Below are positions 16,182-19,362 of a DNA stretch of 64,000 nt, in pieces (position 1 is the first letter of the stretch; every line of letters begins with the position of its first letter). The DNA is from Candidatus Schekmanbacteria bacterium. Its GTDB lineage: Bacteria; CSSED10-310; JACPHN01. The DNA lies in the NCBI GenBank assembly GCA_016188575.1, contig JACPHN010000124.1:1-64000 (forward strand), written 5' to 3'. The position numbers were made by a program, and so were the translations under genes. The notes below the pieces were generated by a model. The model did not search any database and had not been told where the DNA came from. It saw only the letters and a program-made list of their open reading frames with translations.

Positions 16182-17450
16182 TCAGAGCGCCGCGGCGCCC
16201 GCCGTCGCCGGGACCGGATCACAGGCAAAAAGCGTGGCCATGAAGCCCGTCATTTCGCTCATCCCAAGATCGCCACGCGTCGCGCTCACCTCGTCGAAGG
16301 CTGTGACCCCGTCCGCGGGAATGCCGGGTCCGGCCGCAAGCACCGGCACCGGCCCTGCGAGGTGGTCCCCCGTAATGCTGCTCGTGCCGTGATCCGAGGC
16401 GATGCCGATGCGCAACGCTTCTCCCGCGCGGTCGAGAAAGCAGCCCAGGGCGACATCGATGCGCTCGATGAACTGCGCCTTCTGCACCGCGCGCCGGTCG
16501 TGCGCGCTGATGTCACAGCCTTTGATGTGCAACACGATGAGGTCGAAATCGTGGCTGTACTTGAGAGCGAGCGCGAATTTCGCGTCGAGGTCGGTGTCTA
16601 TGGTGCCGGTCATCGAGGCGTCGGAGAGCACGCGCATGCCGGCGAGCAGGCAGAGCCCGGCGACCGTTCGGTCGGCGCCAATTTCCAGTCCGCTTAGCGG
16701 TTTCCCGCATGCCGAGACCTGAGGCAGAGGTCGGTTCGTGCCGGCTCCCCGCGAGAGCAGGGCGTTGGCGGGGGGTAGGCCCCGGCGACGGCGCCATTCG
16801 TTCACGGGATGGCCGCGAAGCCGCTCGGCGGCCATGCGCTCGAAGCGGTCGATGACCTGTGCGGTGCGGCGTGCGGCAGGATCCTGTGGCGAGATCGGCC
16901 GCGGCGTAAGCCGCATCTCCTGGCTCCCGACTTGACGCGGGTCGCTGCCGAGCACGCGATCGGACAACCCCGGGCCGCGCAGCACCAGCGCCAGCCGATG
17001 GCCGGTGCACAGCGCGAGATCCACCGCGACATCGGGATCCGGCCGCAGGGTGCGAATGGCCTCCAGGAGCTCCTCTCTGCCCGTGTCAATGCGGCCCGCC
17101 CGACAATCCACGATCCGCCAATCATCGCTCACGCTGGCCCAGTTGCAGCGGAACGCGACATCGCCGGGGGCCATCGTCAGCCCCGCCCCGCGAGCCTCCA
17201 TCGATCCGCGCCCGATGGGGTAGCGATCGGGATCGTATCCGAGTACGGAAAGTGTGCCCGCGGCCGTATTTGGAGCGCCGGCTCCACCTCCCGGGCGCGC
17301 CAGACCGTTCCGTCCGCGCCGCGCCAGGTCGTCCATCGCGGGCGTCCTGGCAACTTGCAGCGGAGTCCGATTTCCGAGCGTCGGGTTGGGATGGTCGCCG
17401 ATCCCGTCGAGAATCAGCAGGACCGCCGCATGGAAACGTTTCCCAATCAT
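16182..17450 (-). CDS. apgM: 2,3-bisphosphoglycerate-independent phosphoglycerate mutase, archaeal type
   Basis: A 422-residue alkaline-phosphatase-superfamily enzyme of the ApgM group, interconverting 3- and 2-phosphoglycerate. Metal-binding motifs include LLILDGIGDHP near the start, LIVLHIKGCDISAHD, and GIASDHGTSS toward the end. ApgM proteins usually read PGSDVANLSLLGYDP around the nucleophile. Here the aligned stretch is PNTAAGTLSVLGYDP, placing Thr at the usual Ser position, which this superfamily tolerates. The gene overlaps the upstream 2-phosphoglycerate kinase by ATGA, so both enzymes act on 2-phosphoglycerate from one message. A role beyond central glycolysis, such as 2,3-bisphosphoglycerate metabolism, is possible. 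Confidence 0.85.
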   Translation of the reverse strand: MIGKRFHAAVLLILDGIGDHPNPTLGNRTPLQVARTPAMDDLARRGRNGLARPGGGAGAPNTAAGTLSVLGYDPDRYPIGRGSMEARGAGLTMAPGDVAFRCNWASVSDDWRIVDCRAGRIDTGREELLEAIRTLRPDPDVAVDLALCTGHRLALVLRGPGLSDRVLGSDPRQVGSQEMRLTPRPISPQDPAARRTAQVIDRFERMAAERLRGHPVNEWRRRRGLPPANALLSRGAGTNRPLPQVSACGKPLSGLEIGADRTVAGLCLLAGMRVLSDASMTGTIDTDLDAKFALALKYSHDFDLIVLHIKGCDISAHDRRAVQKAQFIERIDVALGCFLDRAGEALRIGIASDHGTSSITGDHLAGPVPVLAAGPGIPADGVTAFDEVSATRGDLGMSEMTGFMATLFACDPVPATAGAAAL

Positions 17451-18619
17451 CCCGTGTTACGTTTTACTTTTTCTTGTAAGCTGTGAATGACAGTATGTAC
17501 GAGCTCGTTTATCGCCGTATCAAAATCATCGTTATTGATGATATCCATATTGAGCTGATCCGCGACAGCGACAAAGTAGTCGTTGATCAGACGAATCCGA
17601 TGAAAATCGCTCAGCCCGCCAGGGTTCTGACGGACGCGGTGAGCCCGGGTTCGCCGCTGTAGTCGGGTGCGGTGCGTGACGCGGTCGGCCACGGACAGGA
17701 CCACGGGAATGTGATAGGCCTTGTCTTTCAGGTCCGGCCAGGCGAGCAGGGCCGGCACCAGGTGCACGCCTTCGATGATGAGATTCATGTTTTCCGCGAT
17801 GGCGCGCTCAACTACGGCGCGCACCCCGACACAGACCTTGGCGGCCTGATGAGTAAATCCGGCAAGAACGCGATCGGCCTCGCTGGAGCCGATGGTCGCG
17901 AACTCCTCCAGGCTCCCAGCATTGTACGAGGAGCTGTGCAGGGCCGGCAAGATCGCATCCGTAAACACGATGCGCATGATTTGGCGGATAATGTCCGTGC
18001 CGCTCACCTTCATGATCCCGAGCCGACTGGCGAGCTCGGTCGCGAGAGTAGACTTTCCAGTGCCCCCGGCGCCGCCGAGATAGATGATGACCGGCCGATC
18101 GAGGCGATCGATGCGCACGGCCAGATTGTAGTGCTCGGCCGCGTCCTTCCCGAACTGCTCGCGAATTCTCTCGAAGACCCGCTTGGAAAGCGTGTCAGCT
18201 TCGATCTCCAGAATCCCCTCCGCGCGCAGGGAAAGCTCGAAATCGCGCGCCATGGCGTATGCCTCGCTCGGGTCGATGCCTGCGCCGGTGATCGAGCGCG
18301 CCAGCAGGCCCTTGGAGAATGGCACGATAGCGCCCGCCGAGCGGATGCCGATCGTTTTTGGGGTGTCGGCGACGGTCTCGCGTAATCCTTGCAGCACGGG
18401 CGCGCCGTAGGCGGCGACGATCTCGTCGTCGACGATCTTGCGCAGCGCCGCGGTGGTGACCTTGTCGGTGTCGCGGAGGCGGTTGCGCACCGAGTTGGCG
18501 ATCCGATGCGCTTGCTCGAAGCTCATCCCGCGGGTCAGGAGAGAATGCGTGAGAATGCCGCGCATGAACGGCAGCTTCTGGTTGGCGTCGCAGACGACTT
18601 TGAGGCGGGCTTTGCTCAT
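17447..18619 (-). CDS. 2-phosphoglycerate kinase (ATP-cone plus P-loop kinase)
   Basis: A 390-residue protein that matches 2-phosphoglycerate kinases, which make 2,3-bisphosphoglycerate from 2-phosphoglycerate and ATP. The N-terminal region (about 5-95) looks like an ATP-cone regulatory domain (VCDANQKLPFMRGILTHSL). The kinase P-loop is YLGGAGGTGKSTLATELA (about 180-197), followed by VSGTDIIRQIMR and NLIIEGVHLVP. The enzyme is best known from methanogens, where its product leads to cyclic 2,3-diphosphoglycerate; no cyclase gene is seen here. The stop overlaps the apgM start by ATGA. It is transcribed divergently from the selenoprotein gene across about 210 bp. Confidence 0.85.
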   Translation of the reverse strand: MSKARLKVVCDANQKLPFMRGILTHSLLTRGMSFEQAHRIANSVRNRLRDTDKVTTAALRKIVDDEIVAAYGAPVLQGLRETVADTPKTIGIRSAGAIVPFSKGLLARSITGAGIDPSEAYAMARDFELSLRAEGILEIEADTLSKRVFERIREQFGKDAAEHYNLAVRIDRLDRPVIIYLGGAGGTGKSTLATELASRLGIMKVSGTDIIRQIMRIVFTDAILPALHSSSYNAGSLEEFATIGSSEADRVLAGFTHQAAKVCVGVRAVVERAIAENMNLIIEGVHLVPALLAWPDLKDKAYHIPVVLSVADRVTHRTRLQRRTRAHRVRQNPGGLSDFHRIRLINDYFVAVADQLNMDIINNDDFDTAINELVHTVIHSLQEKVKRNTG

Positions 18620-18781: not shown

Positions 18782-18828
18782 ATTCTCGGTCGCTGCGCGC
18801 GATCGTGCAGTTTCTTTCAAGGAGACCA

Positions 18829-19065
18829 GTGGTGCACATTCAGCTCATTTTCTGCGCGGCCTGAAACTACGAGCCGCAGGCCGTCAGTTTGACGGAAAAG
18901 ATCCTCAAGAAGCTCAAACGAAAAATCAGCTCTCTCACGCTGGTGCCGGATGCCGGTGGCAAGTTCGAGCTGAGCGTTGACGGGGAGTTGATCTATAGCA
19001 AGTTGGGCACCGGGAAATTTCCGGAGGAGAGCGCGATACTGGCGCAACTCGAGAAGAGAGTCTAG
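18829..19065 (+). CDS. SelW/SelT/SelH (Rdx)-family selenoprotein with in-frame UGA
   Basis: Read through one UGA (18862-18864), this frame encodes 78 residues of a thioredoxin-like Rdx protein. The N terminus is IQLIFCAAU, giving the family redox motif CxxU (CxxC in Cys homologues) right after the first strand. It is followed by NYEPQAVSLTEKIL, then SLTLVPDAGGKFELSVDG and GELIYSKLGTGKFPEE, all hallmark family segments. The length matches full-size homologues. AAGGAG (18819-18824) precedes two GTG codons (18829, 18832); either may be the start. A hairpin suited to a bacterial SECIS lies just after the UGA. Standard gene callers miss the gene because of the UGA. It likely acts as a small oxidoreductase. 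Acylphosphatase follows 18 bp downstream. Confidence 0.85.
18881..18895 (+). promoter_or_regulatory. Candidate bacterial SECIS hairpin
   Basis: CCGTCA-GTT-TGACGG forms a perfect 6-bp stem with a loop beginning G-U. The loop begins 23 nt after the UGA, inside the coding sequence. This matches the described bacterial SECIS pattern: a short stem, a G among the first loop bases, and 16-37 nt from UGA to loop. It would bind SelB to insert selenocysteine. Confidence 0.7.
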
Positions 19066-19083
19066 GGCGAAGCAGGAGCGCGG

Positions 19084-19362
19084 TTGGTGGACAAGAGAGC
19101 GCACGTCGTTATTTCGGGACGGGTGCAGGGGGTGTTCTTCCGCGCCAGCACCGTGGAGGAAGCGAGGCGGCTCGGGTTACGGGGCTGGGTCCGTAACTTG
19201 GTTGATGGCCGGGTCGAGGCGCTCATCGACGGCGACGCCGCGGCGGTTGACCGCATGATCGAGTGGTGCCGGCAAGGCCCCGCGCTCGCGCGGGTCGACG
19301 AAGTCCACGTGAGCTGGGAAAGTCCGGGTGCGGAGCTATCCGGGTTTCGCGTGTATTACTGA
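19084..19362 (+). CDS. acyP: Acylphosphatase
   Basis: A 92-residue acylphosphatase, hydrolysing acyl phosphates such as acetyl- or bisphosphoglycerate-type mixed anhydrides. The phosphate-binding loop is [12 protein letters not shown] with the catalytic Arg, and the catalytic Asn lies in [19 protein letters not shown]. The C terminus GFRVYY is typical. An AGGAG box (19073-19077) serves TTG 19084 or GTG 19087. It follows the selenoprotein gene by 18 bp and probably shares its promoter. Confidence 0.9.

Follow-up and report, generated by a model that had tools for sequence, protein, structure and literature searches.

Introduction

The question raised by this locus is whether a UGA codon lying within a short open frame, in the 64,000-nucleotide stretch of DNA analysed here (the window), terminates translation or is read as selenocysteine (Sec). 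The kind of gene is already known, as the SelW-like family has been catalogued since 2005-2006: its CxxU members ranked first in abundance among the selenoprotein families of the Sargasso Sea data (PMC1088965), SelW-like selenoproteins were listed for several bacterial phyla (PMC1794560), and the motif given for the family is CxxU in reviews of 2022 (PMC9312934) and 2026 (PMC13188914), the second of which assigns it one Sec. PMC1088965 regards the function of SelW-like proteins as unclear and takes the CxxU motif as pointing to a redox role. In this work, we present comparative analyses indicating that the window gene is almost certainly a CxxU SelW-like selenoprotein of the Rdx family with a bacterial SECIS element.

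Results

Reading frame and family assignment

The frame 18829-19065 contains a single in-frame TGA, which replaces the second Cys of a CxxC motif, and an AAGGAG lies upstream, both as originally predicted (Table 1). Its translation is VVHIQLIFCAAUNYEPQAVSLTEKILKKLKRKISSLTLVPDAGGKFELSVDGELIYSKLGTGKFPEESAILAQLEKRV, where the redox motif CAAU occupies residues 9-12, near the N terminus. Profile searches bore out the SelW/Rdx identity, with a whole-protein match to Pfam Rdx PF10262 (63.1 bits, cut-off 22.6, E 2.9e-17) and a score of 59.8 bits (cut-off 34.2) for NCBIfam TIGR02174 (CXXU_selWTH). The score for the Campylobacter SelTWH equivalog NF041051 (74.8 bits) was under its 88-bit cut-off, thus the protein was not assigned to this Campylobacter-specific model. 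Furthermore, eight solved Rdx chains match the protein by sequence, including selenoprotein W (2npb, from mouse) and C17orf37 (2ljk); mouse SelW has a CxxU site, as the window gene does.

Two GTG codons could serve as the start. The spacing of the AAGGAG is 7 nt for GTG 18832 and 4 nt for GTG 18829, and residue 2 of the longer frame, encoded by GTG 18832, is the start in most relatives. Since most relatives begin at this residue, GTG 18832 is probably the better start, and the product would have 77 residues rather than the 78 of the original prediction. An antisense frame (18817-19104, 95 aa) was also considered and rejected as a gene, as stops occur in the corresponding frame of 4 of the 5 relatives compared.

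Table 1. Coordinates of the features discussed, as positions in the window.
Feature	Position	Strand	Details and basis
Shine-Dalgarno-like AAGGAG	18819..18824	+	sequence
Alternative start GTG of the SelW-like gene	18829	+	would give 78 aa
SelW-like (Rdx) selenoprotein gene	18832..19065	+	probably 77 aa, GTG start; Pfam and NCBIfam above cut-offs, starts of relatives
TGC, predicted resolving Cys of the CxxU motif	18853..18855	+	
In-frame TGA, most likely read as selenocysteine	18862..18864	+	UGA in 80/80 relatives; aligned with Cys of CxxC homologues
Putative bacterial SECIS hairpin, within the coding sequence	18881..18895	+	stem 18881-18886 / 18890-18895, loop GUU 18887-18889; covariation, codon constraint, local fold
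Stop TAG of the SelW-like gene	19063-19065	+	
Acylphosphatase gene, directly downstream	19084..19362	+	PF00708, PRK14441

Conservation of the UGA among relatives

In all 80 relatives fetched by similarity the codon of the redox position is UGA, and in none is it UGC or UGU; the records that they come from carry the labels Acidobacteriota, Planctomycetota, Verrucomicrobiota and others. On alignment with Cys-form homologues, the UGA of the window falls on the Cys of CxxC. The seeds of this search included YEPQAVSL, a motif typical of Sec forms, which favoured the recovery of such forms; therefore, a second, family-wide sample of Rdx genes was drawn by Pfam profile from 290 genomes. UGA-containing Rdx genes were found in 50 of these and the Cys form only in 10, and one match was a fragment. 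A strong tRNA-Sec match (E <=5e-11) was present in 42 of the 50 UGA-Rdx genomes versus 82 of the 240 others (Fisher p = 9e-11, a value that is indicative, as genomes are not independent samples). Some of the remaining 8 UGA-Rdx genomes, which gave no strong tRNA-Sec match, are incomplete assemblies.

Selenocysteine machinery of the host genome

The host genome (9.2 Mb in 275 contigs, 94% complete) contains the four genes selA (473.6 bits), selB (366 bits over its frame, which spans 666 aa), selC, that is, a tRNA-Sec with anticodon UCA (76.8 bits), and selD (340.6 bits), supporting the earlier proposal that the organism makes selenocysteine. Two weaker tRNA-Sec matches (L002 and L003) proved to be tRNA-Ser genes.

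The host selD itself carries an in-frame UGA near the N terminus, at the catalytic Cys position (L018:1528-1530, G000 contig C166; ...RIDCAGUASKMSPKVL...), and is probably a selenoprotein gene too. Because of this second in-frame UGA, the genome would very probably make at least two selenoproteins.

A conserved hairpin downstream of the UGA

A stem-loop with the sequence CCGUCA-GUU-UGACGG, comprising a perfect 6-bp stem and a 3-nt loop, begins 17 nt beyond the UGA, and its loop G (18887) is found 23 nt past the final base of the UGA, exactly as had been described, including the G-U with which the loop starts. Within the 40 nt after the UGA, a perfect stem of this size with such a loop arose in 0.6% of mononucleotide shuffles. 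This rarity, taken alone, is suggestive only, and it is the comparative evidence that is decisive. Among 50 distinct sequences, the stem was paired in 91.7% of cells and 3 of its 6 pairs were changed on both sides; the covariation score was 0.204 compared with 0.133 in shuffles, a value reached by 0 of 500 shuffles, and every slid control scored lower. Some of the compensatory changes are silent (GUC/UUG to GUU/UUA, turning C-G into U-A), and others alter the residue (GUC/ACG to GCC/GCG, turning U-A into C-G). Residue-changing compensation with the stem intact was likewise found in GCCGCCAGUUUGGCGG and, in Cytobacillus, in GCCGCGAGUUUCGCGG; the stem-loop of the Cytobacillus plasmid copy reads CCGCGA-GUU-UCGCGG. 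Taken together, covariation and synonymous-codon constraint support the identification of this hairpin as a SECIS element.

Folding of the mRNA gave a divided answer: the SECIS hairpin was the best fold in a shorter segment only, whereas in a 57-nt segment around the UGA the minimum-free-energy fold was another stem, in which the UGA is sequestered and the 5' arm of the SECIS takes part, with a similar result in another fold. An Rfam scan of the window returned a tRNA-Leu as its sole match.

Alternative readings of the UGA and of the hairpin

The most direct alternative treats the UGA as a genuine stop codon or as an error of sequencing, with the gene being either a pseudogene or a CxxC Rdx gene that has been interrupted; it may be argued that DNA sequence alone was seen, and that under translation table 11 no open frame spans the site. 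This reading is extremely unlikely given that the identical UGA recurs in every one of the 80 relatives, that the hairpin covaries, and that the full Sec machinery is encoded in the genome. Moreover, 43 of the 66 residues after the UGA are identical to those of the closest relative, L021, with differences mostly at third codon positions, and this clustering at third positions holds for window-versus-relative differences 3' of the hairpin. Decoding of the UGA as another amino acid (e.g., Trp under a changed code), or nonspecific readthrough, has a negligible probability: we found no point in its favour, and it is contradicted by the correspondence of the position to the redox Cys of homologues, by the presence of tRNA-Sec and SelB in the genome, by the fact that selA, selB and neighbouring genes are open in table 11, and by the confinement of the hairpin to UGA forms. 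Conservation and the Sec machinery were thus the grounds for rejecting a pseudogene, a sequencing error or a changed code.

It may also be considered that the UGA does encode selenocysteine, and that the hairpin merely follows from the conserved peptide NYEPQAVSL instead of being the RNA element read by SelB. The peptide is common to most relatives, which explains part of the base conservation, and the longer segment folds otherwise, as described above. Nevertheless, the Ser codon of the loop is the rare AGU in 68 of 73 relatives, versus 7% of the Ser codons farther downstream in the same genes, and the stem is kept by compensatory changes of both kinds, silent and residue-changing, which makes this explanation very unlikely. 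The Cys homologues that were examined carry another peptide at that place and lack such a stem, which suggests that the RNA accounts for part of the constraint on the peptide after Sec. The preferred reading, in which the hairpin acts as the putative SECIS, is the one followed below.

Genomic surroundings

The acylphosphatase gene located downstream on the same strand may start at TTG 19084 or GTG 19087, 18 or 21 nt from the SelW-like gene, respectively, and an AGGAG (19074-19078) precedes GTG 19087. Because of this short spacing and shared orientation, both genes are probably carried on one transcript. The original prediction that the selenoprotein is expressed with acylphosphatase is thus plausible from the spacing, but the pairing is not conserved: in tblastn searches of up to 3 kb of flanking sequence, acylphosphatase was absent near the relatives in 87 of 87 related loci, and no evidence was found for a functional link between the two genes. 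On the opposite side, a 2-phosphoglycerate kinase-like gene and an ApgM-type phosphoglycerate mutase gene adjoin each other on the reverse strand (16182-18619), divergent from the selenoprotein gene; this pair possibly belongs to a 2,3-bisphosphoglycerate pathway.

Discussion

At the level of sequence comparison, family membership, the UGA at the redox position, the Sec machinery and the conservation of the hairpin with compensation are all established, and SelB-dependent decoding of the UGA as selenocysteine is most likely. A ribosome meeting the UGA at 18862 would insert selenocysteine instead of terminating, with SelB and Sec-tRNA(Sec) presumably bound to the hairpin 17 nt past the UGA. By analogy with the family, the CxxU pair of the predicted thioredoxin-like product would constitute a thiol/selenol redox site, and the product probably both forms selenenylsulfide or mixed disulfide bonds with its thiol partners and resolves them.

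The arrangement is close to that of known systems. The SECIS of E. coli fdhF is also a hairpin shortly after the UGA with G-U in the loop, and it differs from that of the window in a loop G about one codon nearer to the UGA and in a bulged U; the eukaryotic SECIS, unlike the in-gene hairpin of the window, is located in the 3' UTR. The Cys-form Rdx proteins (CxxC; e.g., L111, L113 and L117) share the family and the active-site position with the window gene, but have Cys in place of Sec, the motif C(R/G)WLxRAAWMAQELL, and no SECIS stem. As for the bacterial SelW-like selenoproteins (PF10262/TIGR02174), they display the same CxxU motif, a full-length Rdx match and a SECIS that closely follows the UGA and has a G in its small apical loop, and the window gene differs from them in host lineage and hairpin details only (PMC1088965, PMC1794560, PMC13188914).

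Genes of this kind are easily missed or cut short in automatic annotation, the UGA being taken as a stop, and two further copies illustrate this. On a Cytobacillus spongiae plasmid (NZ_CP089998.1, near 370650-370865; L144:1487-1725), a Sec-form SelW-like gene lies between selD and selA and is unannotated in the gene table examined, a table stated to be incomplete; its hairpin has the same shape and a different sequence. In Thermomicrobium roseum (NC_011961.1; L143:1501-1740), the annotated start of the Rdx gene lies 30 nt after the in-frame UGA, and the database protein therefore lacks the active site. The description of the window gene as unannotatable by default was therefore apt.

Two related Planctomycetota MAGs from Centralia contain SelW-like genes with UGA at both redox positions (UAMUGYEPQAVSL; L048:3022-3033 and L071:3025-3036), with clear ribosome-binding sites and the same SECIS as the window clade, and both genomes have tRNA-Sec. 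This UxxU form appears to be rare, since an exact pattern search across 392 Planctomycetota genomes matched only the genome of L048; for the SelW-like family it is absent from two catalogues that list UxxU for other families (PMC9312934, PMC13188914). On balance, we favour the view that the conservation of YEPQAVSL in the SelW-like clade stems mainly from the SECIS RNA and not from protein function, hence its loss with the change from Sec to Cys, and that the rare branch formed by L048 and L071 encodes two selenocysteines, with probably one hairpin serving both.

The window gene constitutes a clean example of a gene dropped or truncated by standard annotation, in a large genome of a phylum with few other genomes for comparison. 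From its many relatives, a SECIS consensus backed by covariation is obtained for the SelW-like clade, which could be used in automatic annotation, and the UxxU relatives could serve to test whether one bacterial SECIS serves two UGAs nine bases apart.
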